Assembly: GCA_030527015.1 (NCBI GenBank)
Contig: JAUNBR010000010.1
Coordinates: forward strand, 1-64,000
Source: Planctomycetia bacterium
GTDB lineage: Bacteria; Planctomycetota; Planctomycetia; Pirellulales; Thermoguttaceae
Length of the DNA: 64,000 nucleotides
Reading direction: 5' to 3'
Shown here piece after piece: positions 1,040 through 61,373 of the stretch (position 1 is its first letter; each line of letters opens with the position of its first letter). Position numbers and translations under genes: made by a program. The notes beneath the pieces were generated by a model, which was not told the origin of the DNA, did no database searches, and saw only the letters and a program-made list of their open reading frames with translations.

Positions 1040-1104
1040 ATAACCTTCTTCCCCACACTATTTATTTTCCAAATAATTATTTATTCCCCGATGCACCATC
1101 ATTC

Positions 1105-1180
1105 TTATACCCGATACACTATGAATTTCCGTCTTCCAGGCATTTTCTTCGCTGAAAATGGCGAAAAAGCGGAATTTTAT
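1105..1180 (-). repeat. TATAC element, short variant
   Basis: Starts with the right-end sequence TTATACCCGATACACTATG and has the central GGCATTTT..CTTCGCTGAAAATGG hairpin, but the other side is also right-end-like (AAGCGGAATTTTAT). It is a short near-symmetric copy. It lies in the gap 1040-1696, which holds only this copy, the copy at 1443 and a decayed copy at about 1556-1660. Confidence 0.7.
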
Positions 1181-1442
1181 AACACACTGTGCACAAAATT
1201 CATTTTAGAGTCAAAAAATAAATATTTTATGCGTCATGAAATGTCCAGAACGCAAAATTTATAGTACGTCGAGTACAAAAATTCCTTCCCTCTTTATCTT
1301 ATATATTTTCACATCACCTTATATTTTAGCGTATTTTATATGAAAATTCCAGTACTCATCAAAAAATCATAAATCGTTTCTTCTTATTTAACCGATTTCT
1401 CCTTTATAATTCTGTATTTTTATTATTCTCCATATATACTTA

Positions 1443-3635: not shown

Positions 3636-3674
3636 TTTACAAAACTTGTCATATAAAACACACTGGATGCATCT

Positions 3675-3798
3675 TATACTGGTTTCATTTTAAATTTCCA
3701 TTTTGTGCGGCTCTCGAAGCAGGTATTTTCAGCGAAGCAAAATGCCTGCCTGTCGGCGGACAGGAGAAGTGAAAATTTATAGTGTATCGGGTATAAAA
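3675..3798 (+). repeat. TATAC element with CCTGTC cassette
   Basis: Full forward copy TATACTGGTTTC...TATCGGGTATA. The palindrome CCTGTCGGCGGACAGG is inserted right after AAAATGCCTG. A decayed forward copy follows at about 3800-3906 and ends about 30 bases before the hsp70-like start codon. Confidence 0.9.
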
Positions 3799-3936
3799 TT
3801 CCCTCCATTCGGCGCCAGCCTGAAAAATATTTTCAGCCAACTCTCGAATGAAAAACGCAGTAAAATTTATAAAATATAAAAATTTTATCGTGTATCAGGA
3901 ACATAATTTATCATTTTTTAAAATTTAGTAACGATA

Positions 3937-6836: not shown

Positions 6837-6921
6837 CTAAATTTAGGAAAACAGCTATTTTTAAAGCATAAGAACTTTTTCTTTTTTACACTGTGATTCT
6901 GGATTTATTTTATGCCTGATT

Positions 6922-7038
6922 TTATACCTGATGCACTACAAGTTTCCATTTTTCCTGTCCGCCGACAGGCAGGCATTTTAGCGAAGTATGCCTGATTTCA
7001 GAGCCGTATAAAACGGAAATGTAAAATGGAAGTATATA
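6922..7038 (-). repeat. TATAC element with CCTGTC cassette
   Basis: Reverse copy TTATACCTGATGCACTACAA with cassette CCTGTCCGCCGACAGG before GCATTTTAGCGAAG. It ends about 40 bases before the fabI ATG. Confidence 0.85.
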
Positions 7039-7077
7039 ATTCTTCCCCCATTCCATGAACCATCAGAAAGAACCATC

Positions 7078-8635: not shown

Positions 8636-8760
8636 TATTCCTGGTTCTCGTTTAAATTTCCGTTTCATGCGGTTCTTAAAGCCGACATTTTCACCGAAAG
8701 CAAAAATGCCGGCCTGTCGGCGGACAGGGAAAACGGAAAATTTAGTGTATCGGGAAAAAA
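8636..8760 (+). repeat. TATAC element with CCTGTC cassette
   Basis: Forward copy with CCTGTCGGCGGACAGG at 8713-8728, directly after AAAATGCCGG, followed by the GAAAACGGAAAATTT arm. The final TATA is lost. Confidence 0.9.
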
Positions 8761-8780
8761 TCCAGAAATTTTAGAAGAAA

Positions 8781-19287: not shown

Positions 19288-19472
19288 GTACTTTTTTATT
19301 TCCTTATGAAAAATTTTCGTATTTTGCCCTCATTTTAATTTTCACATCATTTCCATATCATTTCCACTCCACGGTTTTTTCGAAAAATAGATATTTTTGT
19401 TTTCTGTTACCGCATATTATGAAAAATTAAGGTAAATCACTGTAATCAAAATATCCTCAGACATATCACTTA

Positions 19473-19596
19473 TTTACTGGTTTCCCTTTTAATTTCTGCT
19501 TTATGCGGCTCTGAAAATCAGGATTTTCCACGAAGCAAAAATGCCGGCCTGTCGGCAGACAGGGGAAACGGATTTTTTTATAGTCATCGGGTGTAT
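19473..19596 (+). repeat. TATAC element with CCTGTC cassette
   Basis: Forward copy with CCTGTCGGCAGACAGG at 19548-19563 after AAAATGCCGG. Its right end GGGTGTATA shares the TATAC of the next copy. The gap 19288-19780 holds these two copies and otherwise nothing recognisable. Confidence 0.88.
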
Positions 19597-19703
19597 ACTG
19601 GTTTCATTTTAAATTTCCGTTTTGTGCGTCTCTGGAAGCAGGCATTATCGGCGAAGCAAAAATGCCGCAGAAGCGAAAATTTATAGTGTATCGGGTGTAA
19701 AAC
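19594..19703 (+). repeat. TATAC element
   Basis: Second copy in direct tandem: TATACTGGTTTCATTTTAAA ... TATCGGGTGTAAA, without cassette. Confidence 0.9.
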
Positions 19704-30235: not shown

Positions 30236-30261
30236 AAGACCTGTCTTTCACTTTTCCTTAT

Positions 30262-30406
30262 CTATATTCCATGCACTACGAATTTCCGCTTCTGCTGCCC
30301 GCGACCGACCTGGGCATTTTTGTTTTCCTGCCCTCAGCAGGTGGGCTGAAAATGCCGACGTTCGTGACCGCACAAAACAGAAATTTAAACGAGAACCAGG
30401 ATATAC
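30262..30406 (-). repeat. TATAC element with two insertions
   Basis: Reverse copy of about 145 bases with a CGCGACCGACCTGGGC insert before the hairpin and CCTGCCCTCAGCAGG at the apex. The left end GAACCAGGATATACT runs into the next copy. Confidence 0.85.
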
Positions 30407-30493
30407 TGATTCCATTTTCACTTTCTGTTTTATGTAGCTCTGAAAACGAGGAAATCTTCGGGAAAGAATGTCGGAGAAGCTGAAATGATATAC
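30402..30493 (+). repeat. TATAC element, decayed
   Basis: Forward copy TATACTGATTCCATTTTCAC with a degraded centre. It shares its ends with the neighbouring copies. Confidence 0.65.
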
Positions 30494-34593: not shown

Positions 34594-36630
34594 TTATAAT
34601 TCGTCTTCCTCAAAAGTACTCTCATCCTCATTTTCTTCACATTCTTCATCTTCTTCATTAAAAGATGAATTACTTCGTACGATCAGCCGATCAGTTAATC
34701 CGTCCTCCACGACAAGAACATTCTCACCAAAATCGATTTCTTCTTCAATAATCGGATTTCCATTTTCATCTAATTTTAAATCGGCATCCGACGTACAGCG
34801 CTTGGCCACTTCCACCAGCTGGTCATAAATCGTTTTATAATCCGTGCCGTCTATCTGATGTATCGCGCTGGCGATTTCTCCCAGATAACGCATAAATTGT
34901 CCACGGCGATCCATCTGCGCCTTCACCCTCTGACGACGATTCAAAAAAAGACCTAATTTTCTTCCCACGGCCTGTAACGCCAGACGCAGTTCCGTCTGTA
35001 TTTCAGGATACGCGGCGATCGCTTCTTTCGATTCACTGGTAAACGGCACCCATACGCTGGCTAAATGCACGATAACGGTAATCGGTCCTCGGGGCAAAGA
35101 ACCTCGTGTCTGCTGAAGGCCGTAATTTCGCCAGTTAATTCCCGTCACCGTCTGAGTAATCGCACACGCAGATGGCTGAAACTGAAGCGGCACGCGATTC
35201 GCATACCGATACACATTCATCGACTGACCTTCTGAGATATTTACATTTTTCATCGCCTCATGAAGACCGAGTACATCTTTCGGCTTCATTTTCGTGGGAG
35301 ACTGCCGTGTGGAAAGCCGTGACTGTTTAATGATTTTATCGGCACCATCCGCACCGATTCCCGTAAAGGTATTCATTAAAAATTGGCGCAGTGTCCGTGC
35401 ATCCGTTTCTTCCAATAATTCACGCAAAAATTCCAGTGAAATGTTCTGGGTGACCGCGCCCCCTCCATAAGCCAGAGCCACTTCCACCTGAAATGGATTC
35501 CCACGATACACCGCCGGCGGGCGAGTAATGGAAGTATAAAATTCACCCGGAACCACCTGATGTAAACCGCGTAATAACAGATCTTCGCCGATCGGAGACA
35601 GACAGTCTGTCGGAGGTGCTGGTATTTTCGTCTGCTGAATCGCCTTATAAAGACACTCCACATCATCTCGGGCAAGACTCGCTGGCTGCGCACGCACACT
35701 AATTTTCGCCTTTTCGCACACCTGTTTAGAAATGGCGGGCGACATTCGAGAAAAACTCTCCCGAAAAAAATTGGTTAAACTGGTTTCTTTTGAATGACGC
35801 ATCATATCCGCCAGGCGTCCCAGTTCCACTCCATATGGATGTGGTTTAATCTCTGTCGGCTCCGGAGGTAAAATATCCGTGGAACGCTCATATATCCGTT
35901 CCTCTTCATCCTCCGGCCCCTGATAATGCAGACGGACATGCGGATTCGCGATCGCCGTCTGCTCCAAATATTCATCCACACTTCCACGCCCACGCTGATA
36001 TTTCGCTTCCAGCTCGATCGCCACGCGCGTCCCATGCCCCGTTTCCATCCAGGTAATACCATGTTCCTGAAGAAAAACTTGTCGCTCTTCACGATTCGCG
36101 GGAACCGTCAGGCCCTCTCCCTGTCCATTTAAAATCTCTGGGACATTTTTTTTCGTATTTATTCGAATTTCATAAAAATGAGTGCTCCGCGGTGAAACCT
36201 GAGAAATAATCCGCACAGGTTTCCCTGTGGTTAAAACGCCGTACATCCCTGCGGCACTTATGCCGATTCCCTGCTGCCCGCGGCTCATGCGCATACGATG
36301 AAATTTAGAACCATAAAGGAGTTTTCCAAAAATGAGCGGAATTTGGCGTTTCAAAATACCTGGACCATTATCTTGAATCGAAACTTTATACCGATTCGTG
36401 CCCGTTTCCTCTATTCTCACCCAGATCTCCGGCAGCATCTCCGCTTCTTCACAGGCATCTAAAGAATTATCCACCGCTTCTTTAACTGTCGTTAAAAGAG
36501 CTTTTCTGGGATTATCGAAACCTAATAAATGGCGGTTCTTGGCAAAAAATTCACTGACGGAAATATCCCGCTGGCTGGCAGCCATGGATTCCGCGGTAAC
36601 TTTACGTTTTCGGGGAGACTCTGTGGACAT
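34594..36630 (-). CDS. DNA topoisomerase VI subunit B (type IIB)
   Basis: 678 residues. The GHKL ATPase site is complete: [10 protein letters not shown] with Asn55 (N box), DNGPGI (87-92), [14 protein letters not shown] (118-131) and [12 protein letters not shown]. The H2TH region and transducer follow ([36 protein letters not shown]), then a 60-residue acidic tail ([13 protein letters not shown]). Topo VI decatenates and relaxes DNA with ATP as an A2B2 complex. The A subunit, which cuts DNA, is not adjacent or anywhere in this window, unlike the usual paired arrangement. The gene is mainly archaeal and plant, with scattered bacterial cases including planctomycetes. Confidence 0.92.
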
Positions 36631-39183: not shown

Positions 39184-39242
39184 ATTTTTGTATACGATAA
39201 ATTTAATCTTCATCCTTAAATTTAATTTTCATCCTTCCAGCT

Positions 39243-39390
39243 TTTATACCCGATACACTATAAAATTCTGCTTCTCCTGTCCGCACCGAAAGGCAGACCG
39301 GCTTTTTGTTCCCCTGTCAGCATCAGGCTTTTCTGAAAATGCCTGCTTTCAGAGCCACATAAAATGAAAATTTAAAGTGGAGCCAGTATG
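39243..39390 (-). repeat. TATAC element with two insertions
   Basis: Reverse copy of about 148 bases: a CCTGTCCGCACCGAAAGGCA variant cassette and apex CCTGTCAGCATCAGG are both present. The left end GTGGAGCCAGTATG is intact. The gap 39184-39830 also has a decayed copy at about 39580-39652. Confidence 0.85.
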
Positions 39391-39652
39391 GTACAAGAAT
39401 ATCTGTATCCATGACCTGATAAAATATAAAACCTGGACATTTTTGTTTTTTGCCACACAATATTTCTCATTTTTTGAAATTATTCTTAAAATTTTCTTAT
39501 TTTCTTGAAAAAAACTTTCTTTTTTAGTAGTATTTTTGGATAAGTAAAGTAAAATAAAGAAATAAGTTTTTTTATGATGATGTCATTTTAAACTTCATTT
39601 TCGCACGGCCACAGAAACAGATTTCATAGCACAAAAGTTGCCGGCAAGAAAT

Positions 39653-41912: not shown

Positions 41913-41956
41913 AAAAACCTTTTTTACAGACCTAAAATCCGTGGATTTCCTTTAAT

Positions 41957-42083
41957 TTTATACCCGATGTACTACAAAATTCTGCTTCTCCGGCATTTTT
42001 GCTTCCTGCCCGCAGCAGGCTGGGCTGAAAATGCCGGGTTTCAGAGACGTACAAAACGGAAATTTAAACGAAAATCCATATAA
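41957..42083 (-). repeat. TATAC element with CCTGCCCGC cassette
   Basis: Reverse copy TTATACCCGATGTACTACAA with apex CCTGCCCGCAGCAGGCTGGG then CTGAAAATGCC. Left end ACGAAAATCCATATAAA. Confidence 0.88.
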
Positions 42084-42199
42084 ATTTTCCACGACCGAAA
42101 AAGCAGAATTTCGCACATCACGGAATACGGAAGTCCTTTCTGAATAACAGACGGACAAAATTCATTCATACGAAGCATCAGAAAAAAAGAATTACCTAT

Positions 42200-42485: not shown

Positions 42486-42496
42486 ATATCGACTTT

Positions 42497-42590
42497 TTAT
42501 ACCCGATACACTATAAAATTCCGCATCTCCGGCATTTTGCTTCGCTGAAAATGCTGGGAAAATGAAAAGTTATCGTGCCTGGAGTATCAT
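42497..42590 (-). repeat. TATAC element, symmetric chimera
   Basis: Both ends are of the right-end type: TTATACCCGATACACTATAA on one side and AGTTATCGTGCCTGGAGTAT on the other, around GGCATTTTGCTTCGCTGAAA. The TGTGCGGCTCTGAAAG arm is missing. Confidence 0.82.
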
Positions 42591-42677
42591 CTATTTTTAA
42601 TAAAGTTTTTTTGTGCGGAAGAATAATAACTTTTTTGGCACATTACGTTTTGTAATTATACAGGAGGTTTCCCTGAT

Positions 42678-44467: not shown

Positions 44468-44491
44468 CAAAATTTTTGACAGATGTAAAAT
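44464..44491 (+). promoter_or_regulatory. promoter-like sequence at the end of coaX
   Basis: TTGACA at 44464-44469 and TAAAAT at 44486-44491, spacer 16. A second TTGACA lies at 44476. It overlaps the coaX stop and leads into a TATAC element 380 bases before htrA. It could drive htrA-holB with a repeat-rich leader, but this is unproven. Confidence 0.4.
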
Positions 44492-44492
44492 A

Positions 44493-44621
44493 TATATACT
44501 GGTTTTCCCTTAATTTTCCGCTTTATATGGTTCTGAAAACAGACACACTCGGCGAACAAAATACCGGCCTGCCTGTGTCGGCGGACAGGGAAAGTGAAAA
44601 TTTACAGTACATCAGGTATAA
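44493..44621 (+). repeat. TATAC element with CCTGTGTC cassette
   Basis: Forward copy TATACTGGTTTTCCCTTAAT with cassette CCTGTGTCGGCGGACAGG at 44572-44589. Right end ACAGTACATCAGGTATA. Decayed reverse sequence follows to 44694. The gap 44468-44868 holds nothing else. Confidence 0.85.
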
Positions 44622-44694
44622 CTCTTCTAAAATTTTCACTTCTCTGAAATTTTGTTTTCCGGCCAGTAGCAGACTGAACTGAAAATGTTCGTTT

Positions 44695-47536: not shown

Positions 47537-48664
47537 ATGCCACACAAAAAACTCCTCACCTGGTTTTCTCATTCCGCCCGAAAGCTCCCATGGAGGGAAA
47601 CGACAGACCCTTATGCCATCTGGGTCAGTGAAATTATGCTTCAGCAGACACAGGTTACCACGGTTATAAATTATTTTCCACGTTTTATGGAGGCATTTCC
47701 CACGATTTCTGCTCTGGCCAGTGCGCCGGAAGATGCCGTTTTAAGACTCTGGGAAGGCCTGGGATATTATCGTCGGGCACGTCAGTTACATGCCGCGGCA
47801 AAAATGATTCAGCAAGAATACGCAGGGGAATTTCCCACGGATTATACTTCTGTCATAAAACTCCCAGGAATCGGAAGGTATACCGCCGGGGCCATTCTTT
47901 CCATTTCCCAGAATCAGCATGTCCCGATTTTAGAAGCGAACACCGCCCGACTTTTCGCTCGCCTGAATGCGCTGGAATTACCCACAGACAGCGCAGCAGC
48001 ACAAAAAATCCTCTGGCAGTATGCGCAAAAACTGGTCTCCACCACAAAATATCCTCCCGGCCAAATTAACCAGGCTCTCATGGAAGTCGGCAGCCTGATC
48101 TGTACTCCCCAAAAACCTGCCTGCACAAAATGTCCTTTACAAAAATTCTGTGCAGCTTATGACCATCACTGTGTGGAAAAGATTCCCGTCACGTCACGTA
48201 AATTACAGTATGAAAACCGCCATGAAGCCGCCGTAATTATTCGCCGCCCCACGCCCAAGAAAAAATCTAAAAAAAATGTTTTTGAATACTGCCTTCTGCA
48301 TTACGCTCCCCAAAAACGCTGGGGAGGGTTATGGGACTTTCCCCGCACCGAAATTCCTCCACATGCCACACCCGATACTTTTCTGCCCGACTTTATTCAC
48401 ACGACCACCGGTCTAAAAATCCATTTAGGCCACATGCTGCACACATTCCGACACAGTGTAACAAAATACCGGATCACACTTCACTGTTATGAAGGAATCC
48501 TGCATTCAAAATACACCACACTCCATAAAAAAACGCCAGACGGCGAAGAAATTCGCTGGGTGGCATTCTCTGATCTTTCCGATTATCCATTAAATGTTAC
48601 CGGAAGAAAAATTACAAAATTTCTGTCAAAATATCAGGAATTACTCGTATTTCCCGATAATTAA
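47537..48664 (+). CDS. mutY: adenine DNA glycosylase MutY
   Basis: 375 residues. It removes adenine mispaired with 8-oxoguanine. PWRETTDPYAIWVSEIMLQQ carries Glu32 of the active site. The helix-hairpin-helix is LPGIGRYTAGAI (109-120). The iron-sulfur cluster ligands are Cys189, Cys196, Cys199 and Cys205 (C-x6-C-x2-C-x5-C). The C-terminal NUDIX-like domain starts near 225. The catalytic Asp after the hairpin (usually LDGNV) is Glu133 in PILEANTARL. The ribosome site is weak. Its last 24 bases overlap the convergent fabF end. Confidence 0.9.
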   Translation: MPHKKLLTWFSHSARKLPWRETTDPYAIWVSEIMLQQTQVTTVINYFPRFMEAFPTISALASAPEDAVLRLWEGLGYYRRARQLHAAAKMIQQEYAGEFPTDYTSVIKLPGIGRYTAGAILSISQNQHVPILEANTARLFARLNALELPTDSAAAQKILWQYAQKLVSTTKYPPGQINQALMEVGSLICTPQKPACTKCPLQKFCAAYDHHCVEKIPVTSRKLQYENRHEAAVIIRRPTPKKKSKKNVFEYCLLHYAPQKRWGGLWDFPRTEIPPHATPDTFLPDFIHTTTGLKIHLGHMLHTFRHSVTKYRITLHCYEGILHSKYTTLHKKTPDGEEIRWVAFSDLSDYPLNVTGRKITKFLSKYQELLVFPDN

Positions 48665-49882
48665 GGTATTATTATGACCGCCGAAACCAAAACTGTTCGA
48701 TAACGCATATCGGCACTCTCTCTGCTGCGCTACATTCGGCGTATAATTTAAATCACACTCCGGATCCGGATTTTCCAGATTTATCGTGGGAGGAATCACA
48801 CCATGCAGAAGTGTCTGAACACAAAAGATTAACTCCAGTGCTCCGCTGGCTCCCAGCGCATGACCGATATGCCCTTTCGTGCTGGAAATATTAATTTTAT
48901 ACGCATCTTCACCAAAAACGAGCTTTATCGCTTTCGTTTCAGCCAAATCACCTAAAATCGTACTCGTACCGTGCGCATTTATATAACTGATCTGCTCTGG
49001 ATTAAGTTTTGCATCTTTCAGTGCTTCACTCATCGCCCGAGCCGCGCCCCTTCCCTCCGGTTCCGGCTGCGCGATATGAAATGCATCTGACGTGGAACCA
49101 TAACCTAAAACTTCCGCATATATTTTCGCTCCACGGCGTTTTGCATGTTCCAGCTCTTCCAAAACCAAAATACCAGCACCTTCACTAATCAAAAAACCGT
49201 CTCGGTCTTTATCAAAAGGCCGGCTGGCACGCTGCGGATCCTCATTACGCTCCGTAAGAGCGTGCATCGCGGAAAATGCAGAAACCGTTACCTTATTTAT
49301 CGTGGACTCCACTCCACCTGTAACTCCCACATCTACTTTCCCCAGCCGAATGGCATCTATAAGACAGGATATGGCATGACTCGCGCTGGCACACGCTGAG
49401 GTCACACAAAAACTCGGCCCTTCCATTCCATATATAATAGAAACCTGCCCTGCCACACCATTCGGAATCATTCGTGGAATGGTAAACGGAGATACCTTCG
49501 ACGGTCCTCGCTCCCACAGACGTTCCATCTGCTCCTCAAAAGTCGTAAGACCTCCGATTCCGCTGCCTATCATACTGGCACACCGAGTCAGATCCACTTT
49601 CGAAAAATCCAGACCAGAATCCCTTACCGCGTCCATGGCCGCGACGATTCCAAAATGTTCACATCTGTCTAAATGCTTAACTTCTTTATGCTCTAAATAT
49701 CCTTCTGTCGTAAAATCAGAATCCACATAAGCGCATATTTTAGATCGGTATAACGCCGGATCAAAATGCGTAATCATACTTCCACAGCTTTTACCATTAC
49801 ACAGCTGCTGCCAGGCACGCTCCACCTTACAGCCTAATGGCGAAACTATTCCCATTCCGGTAATGACTATCCGCCGTTCCAT
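48641..49882 (-). CDS. fabF: beta-ketoacyl-ACP synthase II (FabF)
   Basis: 413 residues from the ATG at 49882 (MERRIVITGMGIVSPLG), with GGAGG 11 bases upstream; the frame continues to 49927. It elongates acyl chains with malonyl-ACP. Active-site Cys164 in VTSACASASHA. The two His motifs are NAHGTSTILGD and STKGHIGHALGASGA. NSFGFGGHNN is at the C-terminus. It is the last gene of the rpmF-fabD-fabG-acp-fabF series, 660 bases after acp because of TATAC insertions. Confidence 0.94.
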   Translation of the reverse strand: MERRIVITGMGIVSPLGCKVERAWQQLCNGKSCGSMITHFDPALYRSKICAYVDSDFTTEGYLEHKEVKHLDRCEHFGIVAAMDAVRDSGLDFSKVDLTRCASMIGSGIGGLTTFEEQMERLWERGPSKVSPFTIPRMIPNGVAGQVSIIYGMEGPSFCVTSACASASHAISCLIDAIRLGKVDVGVTGGVESTINKVTVSAFSAMHALTERNEDPQRASRPFDKDRDGFLISEGAGILVLEELEHAKRRGAKIYAEVLGYGSTSDAFHIAQPEPEGRGAARAMSEALKDAKLNPEQISYINAHGTSTILGDLAETKAIKLVFGEDAYKINISSTKGHIGHALGASGALELIFCVQTLLHGVIPPTINLENPDPECDLNYTPNVAQQRECRYALSNSFGFGGHNNTLIIGKYE

Positions 49883-50156
49883 ACCAAATTGCGCCTCCGC
49901 TCGCACATATAAAAATGAATCTCTCAAAATCCCATCAAAACAGAAAAGTACAGAAAATCAAATAAAAACAGAACCTTTTTTCCATAAAAATTTATGACAT
50001 TTCCTATTATTCTTGATTCTGATCCCATTTTCCTGATTCTGCGCTAAATTCCACGTATATCACCGTATCCTGCGCTAAATTTCACGTATATCACCGTCCG
50101 TTCTTCATTTCCTGCTTCTATAAAATTTCTGCCAGGAAAACCAGACGCCACAGTAT

Positions 50157-50301
50157 TTTACACCAGGCGCTATAAATTTCCGCTTCACCTGTCCGCCACA
50201 GGCAGGCCGGCATTTTTGTTTCTCTGCCAGCAGCAGGCTGCGCTGAAAATGTCTGCTTTCAGAACCGCACAAAACGGAAATTTAAATGAGAATCAGTATA
50301 C
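50157..50301 (-). repeat. TATAC element carrying both cassettes
   Basis: Reverse copy with CCTGTCCGCCACAGGCAGG before GGCATTTTTG and apex CTGCCAGCAGCAGGCTG. The left end is GAGAATCAGTATA. Sequence from 49928 to 50156 shows only a direct repeat of TTCTGCGCTAAATT/TCCTGCGCTAAATT with CACGTATATCACCG (about 50037-50098). Confidence 0.88.
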
Positions 50302-50337
50302 ACAGGGGAAAATATATCACCGCGCATAAAACAGATT

Positions 50338-50432
50338 TATACCCGATACACACTATAAAATTCCTTTTCCCCGGCATTTCATTTCGCTGAAAATACCCAA
50401 GAAATGGAAGTTTATAGTACATCAGGTATAAA
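50338..50432 (-). repeat. TATAC element, symmetric chimera
   Basis: TTATACCCGATACACACTAT on one side and TTTATAGTACATCAGGTATA on the other, around GGCATTTCATTTCGCTGAAA. Both ends are right-end type, as at 42497. Confidence 0.82.
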
Positions 50433-50540
50433 TAACACATATCTTTATGTCCATTTCGTCAGACAAAACAGCAGTTTCGTCCTTCAGAAAATCTCCGGAA
50501 AATGAATTTTATCGTGTTCCCGATGAAAAAGATTACGTCT

Positions 50541-50792
50541 TTAATTATTACCATTCATGGCCGTATCTATATAATCGATCACATCTCCCACAGTACGTGC
50601 TTTATCCGCATCTTCTTCAGGAATCGTGATGCCGAATTCATCCTCTAATTCCATTACCAGCTCCACGATATCCAGAGAATCCGCGCCAAGATCTTTAATA
50701 AAATCCTTTTCCGGAGTTAAATCTTCCTTATTCACGCCAAGCTGATCACTGATAATTGTCGCGACTCGATCTGCTACACTTTCTGAACCCAC
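50541..50792 (-). CDS. acpP: acyl carrier protein
   Basis: 83 residues from a GTG at 50792; AGGAGA 6 bases upstream decides the start. An acidic helical protein with the phosphopantetheine site Ser39 in [20 protein letters not shown]. AcpS at 38.8 kb should modify it. It lies between fabG and fabF, the usual place, but each gap has been widened by TATAC copies. Confidence 0.95.
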
Positions 50793-52420: not shown

Positions 52421-52515
52421 CGCTCCACCACGAAAAAATCAACAAAAATTCAAAAATGCCCGTAAAACAAAATTCACTGTGCGTCAAAATAAAATCTGGA
52501 ACACCATATTATTTT

Positions 52516-52643
52516 ATATACAGGTTCTCCTTTAAAATTCCATTTTGTGCGGTTCCGGAAGCAGACATTTTTAGCGAAACAAAAATACCGGTCTGGTGTC
52601 GGCGGACAGGGAACGCGAAAATTTATAATGCATCGGGTACATA
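52516..52643 (+). repeat. TATAC element with CTGGTGTC cassette
   Basis: Forward copy TATACAGGTTCTCCTTTAAA with TCTGGTGTCGGCGGACAGGG cassette. Right end TGCATCGGGTACATAA. Confidence 0.86.
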
Positions 52644-52750
52644 ATACTGGTTCTCGTTTAAATTTCCGTTTTATGTGGCTCTAAACGCAGGCATTTTCAG
52701 CAAAACAAAAATACCAAAAAAACCGCATTTTATCGTGCATCGGGCATAAT
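52642..52750 (+). repeat. TATAC element
   Basis: Forward copy TAATACTGGTTCTCGTTTAA ... CGTGCATCGGGCATA, in direct tandem with the preceding copy. Confidence 0.86.
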
Positions 52751-52782
52751 ATATAATAGATAACTCGCCTGTCCAGTTTTTC

Positions 52783-56235: not shown

Positions 56236-56669
56236 AACAAACAAAATCCTTTTTTTAAAAAACAATAAATAATATTTCCACATTACTCATTTAATTTTAC
56301 TCATAAAATCCAAAATTTCAAGTAAACTTCAAAAGATTTTTCGATTTTATGGAAATTTCCAGCCTTTTTCCGTGGAATTTATTAAAAATCAGTATATTTT
56401 TAATTATATTAATTATGTCGACTTTTTTTCAGTTTTTCTAAACACGTAAATTGCAATTATATTTTTTATCATATCTCGCACAAAAATAATTTTTGCAGAA
56501 AAATTGCAAAATTTTTCATAATTATGAGTACAAAATTATCCTTCACTAAATAAATTTAAATTTTACTTTCTTTAGGTAATGACAGAGCGTTTCCAGTACA
56601 GTATTTTTTAGAACATTTACAGACATAATTAAATAAAATTCAAAAAACCGAACAAAAAAATATTTTGTA

Positions 56670-56776
56670 TCTGCGATGCACGATATAATTCTTCCCCTGT
56701 CCGCCGACAGGCCGGCATTTTTACTTCCCCCAAAATGCCAGGGAAACAGAAATTTATAGTGCATCGAGCATAAAAA
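56670..56776. repeat. TATAC element, symmetric chimera with CCTGTC cassette
   Basis: CGATGCACGATATAATTC on the left and AATTTATAGTGCATCGAGCA on the right are both right-end type. CCTGTCCGCCGACAGG stands before GGCATTTTTACTTC. Confidence 0.82.
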
Positions 56777-56830
56777 ATATTATCCTTTTTCAGGGGGTGG
56801 TTTTTCTCGCAAAAAAAGTTATACTTTAAT

Positions 56831-56989
56831 TTATACTGATTCTCTTTTAAATTTCCGTTTTGTGCGGCTCTGAAAGCAGGTGAAAGCACCGGTATTTTTA
56901 CCCAGCCTGTCTGGCAGGGAAGCAAAAAATGTCAGCCTGTCTCTCAGCGGACAGGAAAATCGGATTTTTATCGTGCATCGGGTATAAAA
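56831..56989 (+). repeat. TATAC element, expanded to about 160 bp
   Basis: Forward copy TTATACTGATTCTCTTTTAA with an apex insert CCCAGCCTGTCTGGCAGGG and a second CCTGTCTCTCAGCGGACAGG cassette. Right end CGTGCATCGGGTATA. A decayed reverse copy follows to about 57070. The gap to the PP2C gene holds nothing else. Confidence 0.87.
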
Positions 56990-57135
56990 ATACCTTTTCT
57001 GGCATTTCGAGATGTTCGAAACGTCTGTTTCCGTGACCGCATAAAATTTAAATTTACTGTGGCATCCGTACATATTTTTTATTTTTGTATTCTTCCCTTT
57101 TTCGTTTTTTATTATATTTTTATCCAAAACATAAA

Positions 57136-58466: not shown

Positions 58467-58573
58467 CATTTATACTCGATACACTATAAAATTCCGCTTC
58501 ACTGGCATTTAGATTTTCAGAAAATACCTGCTTTCAGAACCGCACAAAACTGAAAAGTGGAACCAGTATATAC
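58467..58573 (-). repeat. TATAC element, followed by decayed copies
   Basis: Reverse copy TTATACTCGATACACTATAA ... AGTGGAACCAGTATATA. A longer decayed reverse copy (58573-58717, with apex TTCCTGTATCCCGACTG) and a left-half fragment (58719-58776, ending GAGCCAGTATAATA) follow head to tail. They fill the gap 58453-58792. Confidence 0.85.
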
Positions 58574-58792
58574 CTGGACACACTATAATTTTCAGCTTCC
58601 CTCAAAAATTTCAGTTTCCCTGGTATTTTTGCTTTCCTTCCTGTATCCCGACTGAACAGAAAATATGGTTTTTGTGACCACACAAAACAGATATTTAACA
58701 TAAATCCGGTATATTTTCATCTAAATGTGCTCGCGTGGTCACGCAAAACGTAAATTTAAAATAGAGCCAGTATAATAAAAAAGATTTTCATT

Positions 58793-61165
58793 ATGCTTTT
58801 TGTGAATCCATTTTTTTTGATCTTTACTGCGCTGATCGGCGTTCCGATTCTGCTGCACCTGTGGATGCGCCAAAAACCGCAAAAAATCATTTTCCCTGCC
58901 ATTCTTTTTTTGAAATCACAGGAAAAACCGCAGAAACGTACACTGCTTCTGCGGCATCTTTTTCTGCTTTTTTTGCGTGTTTTTCTCATTTTATTACTGA
59001 TACTTATTTTTTCACGTCCGAGTTTACATTCTTCCAGATACACTCCCGGCGGAGATTCTCCCACCGCCGTCATTTTACTTTTTGATACTTCCGTAAGGAT
59101 GGAGTACCGTTATGAAAATATTTCCCGACTTCAGGCCGCACAGGAAATCGGAAAAAAATTATTATTACAGTTTCCCCGAAACAGTGAATTCGCGGTTATT
59201 TCCACAAAACCCGGGATACGTGGTTTTATCCCAGATCGGGGAGAAGCCGCACGCCAACTTTCCCGGCTTCAGACTTCCAGTACAGGAAAATCTCTGCTGG
59301 AGACACTTTATGAAATTTTACCATTATATGAAAACTCCACACTTCCGCGCCGCGAAATGTTTATTTTTACAGACATGTCCGAAATGCCCTGGAATTCCGG
59401 TCTAAAGACAGAATTTCAGGCGTTCATGAAAAAATATTCAGATGTGGCGGTATATATTATAGATGTGGGAGCAGATTTCATTATAAATGACACACTGGAC
59501 ATCCCGATACTTCCCAAAACACGTTTCGTGGAAGGGGGAGCTTTACACATTAAAACACGTTTACTTTCACAAAATGGCACTCTCACAGCACCGTCCAAAA
59601 TAATTCCTGAAGAAAAAAAAGAAGACCCCACCTCTGAAAGTTCTTCTCTTCCTCTTCAGCGAAATGAAAATGTCTCACAGAAAACGGTTTCCGTTTATAT
59701 GCTGGACGCAGAGGGGGTTCCACAAAAAAGAGACGAACATTCTGTTTTTATTCGTCATGGGGAAACGGTGGAAATGGATTTTTTTGTCGGAGATCTGGAA
59801 ACAGGACCGAATCAGGGATTTTTGGAAATCACAGGCACCGACGCACTTCCTTCCGATAATCGTCGTTTTTTCACAGCAGAAGTAATGCCCTCCATTCCCA
59901 TTTTACTCGTGGCACCGGAACCCGCAGAAACGCTTACTTTTTTTGTAAAACAGGCCCTGGCACCGACATTTCATCTGCAGCAGGAACATTCACGTTTTGT
60001 GTGTGACGTCATTTCACAAAAAGAATTTATGGATATTTTAAATGCCGATTTACCTCCGCATGTTTCCACTCCGATAAAAACAGAAAAAAAGCCGGATTCC
60101 CCCACAAAACCCACGAAAATACCTTTTTCCTCAGACACTAATTTTCTGGATGCATACGCAGCTTTTATGTTAATAGACCCCACGGAACTTTCCGGAAGTG
60201 TGTGGCAAAAAATTTTTGATCAGGTAAATGCGGGAAAAGGTCTCGGACTATTTTTAGGCCCGAACGCTCATAATATTACTTCCTTTAACGCAGCAGAAGC
60301 ACAGCAGCTGATGCCTGCGAAACTGGAATTTCAGTCACGCAGACCGGAAGGTGTCTGGCTGGCGCCCACACGTGCCACACAGCACCCCGTTATGCGAGAT
60401 TTAACCGTACCAGGACTTTCTATTCCCTGGGCACAAATTCCCATCTTCCGTTACTGGCAGCTGGGGAAATGGAATTCCGGCGTACAAAACATCCTTTCAT
60501 TCACCGGTGGAGATCCCGCGATCATGGAACGTACCGTGGGCACAGGAAAAGTATTATTCATGAGCACACCGCCCTATAATACACAGATTCATGATCATAA
60601 AAAACCTTTATGGAATTTACTTCCTCAAAACGGATCCTGGGTTTTCGTCATCCTCATGAATCGCATGGCGCAGTGGCTGACAGGCGAAACCGATAATTCC
60701 GCGAATACCCTGGCCGGCATACCTTTCACCATTTCCCTGACAGGAACACGCCATGATCGTTATTCCATTTTCCCATTTCCAAGAACGGCGCAGGATACTC
60801 CGATTACTTTTTCTGCTGACACCCGAGAACATCTTTTAGATATTTCCGCGGTGGAAAAGCCTGGCAATTATCGTGTATCTCCTTTCTCGGAAACGAACAC
60901 TCTGACAGAAAATGATTTCATTCGTGGTTTTAGCGTAAATACTTCTCTGGAACAGACACTCCAGACAAAAATTTCACCTTCCCAGTTAAGAATAATTTTT
61001 GGTGAACACCCGATTCGTTTTGCCAAGAATTTCACACAAATTGAGCGGGAAGTTACCGCCGGAAGAATCGGTTTCGAGCTTTATACTCCTCTCGTCATCC
61101 TATTTTTAATCTGTATGATTCTGGAAATATGGCTTTCAAATAATTTTTATCGGACCGCAAAATAA
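58793..61165 (+). CDS. BatA-like membrane protein with degenerate vWA domain
   Basis: 790 residues. The N-terminal BatA domain (1-75) is typical: two membrane spans around HLWMRQKPQKIIFPAILFLK and TLLLRHLFLLFLRVFLILLL. A vWA-like domain follows (LLFDTSVRME, 95-104); its MIDAS is DTSVR, missing the second Ser, so metal binding is doubtful. The middle is beta-rich and extracytoplasmic. A glutamine-amidotransferase-like segment near 450-600 (LGLFLGPNAHN) and a final membrane span (LYTPLVILFLICMILEIWL) complete it. Such genes pair with DUF58 and MoxR proteins. No ribosome site is seen. Confidence 0.8.
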   Translation: MLFVNPFFLIFTALIGVPILLHLWMRQKPQKIIFPAILFLKSQEKPQKRTLLLRHLFLLFLRVFLILLLILIFSRPSLHSSRYTPGGDSPTAVILLFDTSVRMEYRYENISRLQAAQEIGKKLLLQFPRNSEFAVISTKPGIRGFIPDRGEAARQLSRLQTSSTGKSLLETLYEILPLYENSTLPRREMFIFTDMSEMPWNSGLKTEFQAFMKKYSDVAVYIIDVGADFIINDTLDIPILPKTRFVEGGALHIKTRLLSQNGTLTAPSKIIPEEKKEDPTSESSSLPLQRNENVSQKTVSVYMLDAEGVPQKRDEHSVFIRHGETVEMDFFVGDLETGPNQGFLEITGTDALPSDNRRFFTAEVMPSIPILLVAPEPAETLTFFVKQALAPTFHLQQEHSRFVCDVISQKEFMDILNADLPPHVSTPIKTEKKPDSPTKPTKIPFSSDTNFLDAYAAFMLIDPTELSGSVWQKIFDQVNAGKGLGLFLGPNAHNITSFNAAEAQQLMPAKLEFQSRRPEGVWLAPTRATQHPVMRDLTVPGLSIPWAQIPIFRYWQLGKWNSGVQNILSFTGGDPAIMERTVGTGKVLFMSTPPYNTQIHDHKKPLWNLLPQNGSWVFVILMNRMAQWLTGETDNSANTLAGIPFTISLTGTRHDRYSIFPFPRTAQDTPITFSADTREHLLDISAVEKPGNYRVSPFSETNTLTENDFIRGFSVNTSLEQTLQTKISPSQLRIIFGEHPIRFAKNFTQIEREVTAGRIGFELYTPLVILFLICMILEIWLSNNFYRTAK

Positions 61166-61264
61166 TATACGGAGTTCATTTTAATTTTCCATTTTCAGCA
61201 GTTACCGAAACTGATTTTTTTGTATCACCAGCTGAAAAAACAAAAAACTTATCGTGCGCCGGAT

Positions 61265-61373
61265 ATATCCTGGCTCTCCTTTTAAATTTCGTTTTTACGG
61301 CTCCGAAAGCCAGGTATTTTCACGAAGCAAAATGCCAGAGAAGCAGAAATTCATAGTGCATCAGGTATAAAAT
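61265..61373 (+). repeat. TATAC element abutting a start codon
   Basis: Forward copy ATCCTGGCTCTCCTTTTAAA ... ATAGTGCATCAGGTATAAAA. Its last base is 61373 and the next gene's ATG is at 61374. A decayed forward copy precedes it at about 61180-61262. Confidence 0.87.

Follow-up and report, generated by a model that had tools for sequence, protein, structure and literature searches.

Optional hairpin cassettes at two fixed points of an abundant intergenic MITE, probably of IS630/Tc1-mariner type

Introduction

The Correia elements (NEMIS/CREE) of Neisseria occur in two length classes, ~107 and ~155 bp, the difference being a single internal stretch of 50 bp (PMC2229807), and more than 120 copies have been reported (PMC10969869). 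The element described here resembles them as a short palindromic intergenic MITE with TA ends and length classes, a likeness that is architectural only. Unlike Correia elements, it carries two separate optional hairpins and is estimated at ~4,000 copies. For an optional internal segment, Correia elements are arguably the nearest parallel. RUP of Streptococcus pneumoniae is 107 bp long, uses a TA target, has ends in common with IS630-Spn1 and is found within transposase genes (PMC2229807). It offers a parallel for the mobilisation model proposed below: here too the target is TA, the ends resemble those of an IS630-family element and copies lie inside a transposon. However, RUP is described as a simple element without optional cassettes, with 108 copies reported.

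The ERIC elements of enterobacteria are 127-bp intergenic palindromic MITEs, also with TA ends; their count of 711 in Photorhabdus is the highest in a 2024 review, which, in contrast to the element studied here, cites no IS630 partner for them (PMC10969869). BOX of Streptococcus pneumoniae is a modular short repeat in which the internal boxB may be absent or repeated (PMC3049150). The modularity is shared, but BOX modules vary in tandem number, whereas each cassette of the present element is found once or not at all in a given copy. The REP/RAYT system consists of a palindrome of 20-40 bp moved by a Y1 (RAYT) transposase; the size and TA duplication of the present element fit IS630 instead.

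According to the same review, nothing near the 8-10% MITE share of plants has been observed in prokaryotes (PMC10969869). One MITE family taking up roughly a tenth of the genome of a bacterium would go beyond what that review records, a comparison drawn from the open-access literature, in which a larger case may exist. Candidate copies in congeners range from none to over a hundred, making the genus a natural test of bacterial tolerance to a transposon burst. The optional hairpins could serve as a ready internal marker for tracing copy waves and exchange among copies.

A copy with both cassettes at the fab locus

An earlier note had described a copy at 50157-50301 of the window (the whole 64-kb stretch of DNA that was analysed) as bearing two palindromic cassettes, A and B, and its sequence bears this out. 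The copy sits in the spacer between acpP and fabF, with the following features:

50159..50298, + strand: MITE copy with both cassettes (TACACC...TCAGTA); sequence, and profile match 50156-50303 at 90.8 bits
50299..50300, + strand: flanking TA, target dinucleotide of this copy; sequence, with the TA rule taken from nested copies
50173..50182, + strand: outer stem, left arm, TAAATTTCCG; inverted repeat I7 and DNA fold
50275..50284, + strand: outer stem, right arm, CGGAAATTTA; inverted repeat I7 and DNA fold
50188..50208, + strand: cassette A, CCTGTCCGCCACAGGCAGGCC, side hairpin of the L arm, insert proper 50190-50208; profile insert at model position 38
50209..50218, + strand: inner stem, left side, GGCATTTTTG; alignment and fold
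50223..50241, + strand: cassette B, TCTGCCAGCAGCAGGCTGC, apex extension; profile insert at model position 48, exact ends alignment-dependent
50245..50253, + strand: inner stem, right side, GAAAATGTC; alignment
50335..50433, + strand: neighbouring copy, symmetric L-L, without the R-arm insert; profile match of 56.4 bits and alignment
50541..50792, - strand: acpP (acyl carrier protein)
48641..49927, - strand: fabF (beta-ketoacyl synthase); Pfam

The left flank of the copy is TT, not TA, and its TA duplication has either decayed or was never perfect. Seven congeners conserve the gene order fabD-fabG-acpP-fabF, and their spacers are 56-378 bp long; in this genome the spacers measure 532, 696 and 640 bp and contain MITE copies, the copy above among them. 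The insertions at this locus are recent relative to the genus, across which the orthologous proteins are only 61-82% identical. Just outside the element, window 50036-50097 holds a 31-bp repeat, ATTCTGCGCTAAATTCCACGTATATCACCGT, as two tandem units 94% alike.

The host element, its number and its target site

The host element is a non-coding imperfect palindrome of ~102-105 bp, TACCCGATRCACTATAAATTTCCG...CGGAAATTTAAAGTGGAACCAGTA, for which the aligned copies give the consensus TACCCGATACACTATAAATTTCCGCTTCTCCGGCATTTTTGCTTCGCTGAAAATGCCTGCTTTCAGAGCCGCACAAAACGGAAATTTAAAGTGGAACCAGTA. In the flank composition of the copies, conservation drops sharply near TATAC and GTATA. The element is a MITE: short, non-coding, with terminal inverted repeats and many dispersed copies. 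A profile built from window copies identified 70 non-overlapping copies of clear orientation in the window, and the profile search identified 960 across 789 kb of this genome, compared with 0 in the reversed control, so that the copies are not due to chance. The contigs of the 789 kb had been picked partly for good matches, and a second set was therefore taken by contig number. These unselected contigs contain 188 copies in 178 kb, i.e. 1.06 per kb and 10.4% of bases. Extrapolated from the sampled stretches to 3.84 Mb, the genome would hold about 4,000 copies including fragments, or 0.4 Mb. Nearly all copies are intergenic, the midpoints of 15 of 735 well-scoring copies falling inside an ORF of at least 150 aa, compared with 481 expected.

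Some copies depart from this form or arrangement. Symmetric L-L copies, which lack the R-arm insert and have the left arm repeated in reverse as their right half, lie at window 1100-1205, 42492-42598, 50332-50440 and 56662-56782. Copies abutting head to tail with a common terminal TATA are found at window 19467-19703, 52512-52751, 58468-58717 and 61161-61373; they look as if the ends of old copies had been targets for new ones. Elsewhere in the genome, locus L017:13-812 is a cluster of copies spaced ~210 bp apart, in which the apex hairpin differs (CGGACTGTCGTCAG).

The target site was judged from clear nested insertions rather than scored copy by copy. Nine nested pairs were found, and the clear ones, read by eye, give the structure host...TTTTA|TACCCGAT...CCAGTA|TACTT...host, in which an element of the form TAC...GTA is flanked on both sides by the duplicated TA. 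Clear cases are L032:9391-9606, L030:15267-15485, L018:3951-4164 and L024:8769-8988. A TA target is a mark of the IS630/Tc1-mariner group, and the host element therefore points to that group.

This genome and two congeners contain IS630-family transposons with DDE_3 and HTH_33 domains; their ends agree with the R end of the MITE at 18-21 of 26 bases. At locus L080, the IS ends TATACTCATGCCATTTTAAAATTCAG and, inverted, TATACTCATTCCATTTTAAAATTTCG flank transposase remnants, the whole being bounded by TATAC...GTATA, and two MITE copies lie within this transposon. Of 26 bases, its ends have 20-21 in common with the R end of the MITE and 17-18 with the L end, compared with a best control match of 16 of 26 in the reversed 64 kb; the IS630-type and MITE ends are thus similar, not identical. 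DDE_3 matches number six in this genome, all fragmentary or interrupted, 16 in congener G004 and seven in congener G005. The assembly yielded no intact transposase, only broken copies, several of them at contig ends. From these sequence comparisons, the most likely agent of MITE movement is an IS630/Tc1-mariner-type transposase that acts in trans and belongs to a transposon with similar ends, the MITE inserting at TA and duplicating it. Congener G004 also contains a second MITE family of ~106 bp, TATAATACTTCTCGTTGAAATTTCC...GGGAATTTTAAAGGAGAACGAGTATA (loci L101, L102, L105 etc.), whose ends likewise resemble IS630-type ends.

Positions and combinations of the cassettes

Across 782 aligned copies in the 789 kb, inserts of at least 8 nt are nearly confined to two places, with 122 at model position 38 (cassette A, CTTCTCC|GGCATTTT) and 40 at position 48 (cassette B), compared with at most three at any other model boundary; judged by length, 122 copies carry A and 46 carry B. 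The fixed insertion points reported earlier thus hold throughout the alignment. Cassette A has the form CC[TGTCCGCCGACAGGCMGGCC]GGCA, chiefly in 12-, 16- and 20-nt versions, and cassette B is mostly CTGCCAGCAGCAGGCTGG-like, alongside other apex variants. Allowing two mismatches, the core of cassette A has 76 sites, compared with one in a Markov-1 control.

In the window, cassette A (CCTGTCGGCGGACAGG and variants) is present at every place previously listed, namely 3749, 8713, 19548, 44574 and 52595 on the + strand, 6954 and 56696 in reverse, and as a variant at 50188-50208; cassette B was likewise recovered at 13.3, 29.7, 33.2, 42.0 and 50.2 kb. Further copies of A lie at ~3.1, 21.1, 26.8, 30.3, 39.3 and 56.9 kb, and of B at ~30.3, 36.8, 39.3 and 56.9 kb. 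The elements concerned include the following, the first eight called by motif, profile and alignment and the last three by profile, alignment and inserts:

3669..3799, - strand: MITE copy with cassette A
8636..8761, - strand: MITE copy with cassette A
6919..7039, + strand: MITE copy with cassette A
19467..19596, - strand: MITE copy with cassette A, adjoining a second copy at 19592-19703
44490..44622, - strand: MITE copy with cassette A
52512..52645, - strand: MITE copy with cassette A, between fabG and fabD
56664..56777, + strand: symmetric L-L copy with cassette A
41955..42087, + strand: MITE copy with cassette B only
39242..39391, + strand: MITE copy with both cassettes
30260..30408, + strand: MITE copy with both cassettes
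56826..56990, - strand: MITE copy with both cassettes

The right arm next to which A had been placed corresponds, on the opposite strand, to the L arm (the TATACCCGAT end). Cassette B had been said to replace the apex; it extends it instead.

By motif, A occurs in 93 copies and B in 35. Under the strict motif, 602 near-full copies have neither cassette, 82 have A only, 24 B only and nine both; the motif definition was drawn up after the inserts had been seen, and these counts are descriptive. By length, 15 copies have both cassettes compared with 7.2 expected (odds ratio 2.8, p 0.003). With cassettes at fixed internal points and in all four combinations, the proposal of a modular family is supported. 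The four combinations also exclude a single nested gain of each cassette without recombination or recurrence, provided that the motif calls are right; unless they are wrong, at least one cassette needs one or the other.

Gain, loss and age of the cassettes

The history that we regard as likely is that an IS630/Tc1-mariner-type MITE expanded to ~4,000 copies and that the cassettes are lineage-specific gains in a few source copies, spread by transposition. Cassette A would have arisen as an extra hairpin on the L-arm flank and B as an extra hairpin at the apex, both away from the element ends, so that they need not affect transposition. Each would then have spread with its source copies as a single unit, with partial shuffling among copies by recombination or by recurrent gain and loss. 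The cassettes would belong mostly to an older wave, which the plain form now outnumbers; we favour gain early in this lineage followed by amplification of plain sources.

Gain rather than loss is what we infer, as the more probable of the two. Neither cassette occurs in 25 full copies from congener G007 or in 23 full copies from G004, samples in which some loci were fetched with a query bearing both cassettes. The G007 copies are diverse, but some loci were the same place fetched twice, leaving fewer than 25 distinct copies; the G004 copies are near identical (one burst) and therefore amount to about one outgroup observation. With A at its frequency by length of ~16%, the probability of finding none in 25 G007 copies is ~1%, a figure flattered by taking the copies as independent and distinct. 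The second G004 family is closer in alignment to the plain form (59 compared with 49). Homology of cassette A to the GTCCGCC segment of that family was considered and rejected, as a shuffled cassette scored equally in 17% of trials; the plain form, moreover, aligned better. Some G007 copies, e.g. L056:1501-1604, have an R-arm side hairpin, AAAGGACCGCCCTTT, which is also palindromic and unlike the R arm here in sequence.

In the opposite direction, an ancestor with both hairpins could have given rise to the plain form by precise deletion, e.g. replication slippage across the palindromes, perhaps many times. Short direct repeats suitable for this flank the cassettes (CC...CC around A, CTG...CTG around B), and the 12-, 16- and 20-nt steps of A look like slippage of a GGCM unit. 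Furthermore, copies with A or with B are on average more diverged from the plain-form consensus than plain copies (0.21 compared with 0.17), as would be expected whether they represent an older wave or the ancestral state. However, the sampled G004 and G007 copies are all plain, the related 106-bp family fits the plain form better, and partial remnants are few, the lengths of the A region forming a bimodal distribution, for the most part either 3 nt or clearly over 12 nt. Taken together, we consider such a history unlikely, though deserving of some weight.

The single clade per cassette that the earlier note had set against repeated modular exchange is not seen on a FastTree of the arms, which at 105 bp are short and nearly star-like, so that the test has little power. 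On this tree, A requires 80 label changes for 91 copies bearing it (shuffled 86.3 +/- 2.1) and B 29 changes for 33 copies (shuffled 32.6 +/- 0.6). Nearest neighbours sharing A show no excess (eight compared with 11.5 by chance), and those sharing B number seven compared with 1.5, partly via local tandem copies. That the hairpins were gained repeatedly at the same points through the folded (cruciform) form of the MITE, as recurrent structural mutations rather than a few inherited insertions, is in our view improbable.

Function and autonomy of the hairpins

The hairpins could instead be functional modules, i.e. protein- or RNase-binding sites maintained by selection acting on RNA or DNA. The core of A is somewhat more conserved than the arms of the copies bearing it, at 0.12-0.16 from its own consensus compared with 0.21. 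On the other hand, the cassette is absent from most copies and the bases of the A hairpin do not covary (90.6% paired, compared with 90.7% when shuffled), so that this test gives no sign of selection after insertion. In plain copies, double changes are slightly in excess (394 compared with 322 +/- 15), for which shared subfamily ancestry could be responsible. A selected function is accordingly very improbable.

The cassettes are small optional hairpins internal to the element, in a minority of older copies, and not separate mobile elements. The core of A has 70 sites inside MITE copies and six outside, most of the latter, read by eye, lying beside recognisable arm sequence and resembling decayed copies, and neither a TA nor any other target duplication was seen around cassette A. 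Copies with A form the inner element of two nested pairs (L032:8300-8430 and L046:14662-14790); cassette and arms therefore move together as a unit. The suggestion of small elements inserting into a preferred site of a larger one, although A and B are both palindromic and lie at constant points, is thus scarcely credible, with A essentially absent away from the element arms, no target duplication and transposition of whole cassette-bearing elements.

A 16S search of this assembly gave no match, and window proteins brought up no relative in a collection of named genomes. An initial assignment to the Firmicutes gave way to a probable one to the Planctomycetota once FliP, BatA-like and topoisomerase VI subunit B genes had been identified; the last of these, at window 34594-36630 on the - strand (665 bits), is unusual in bacteria.
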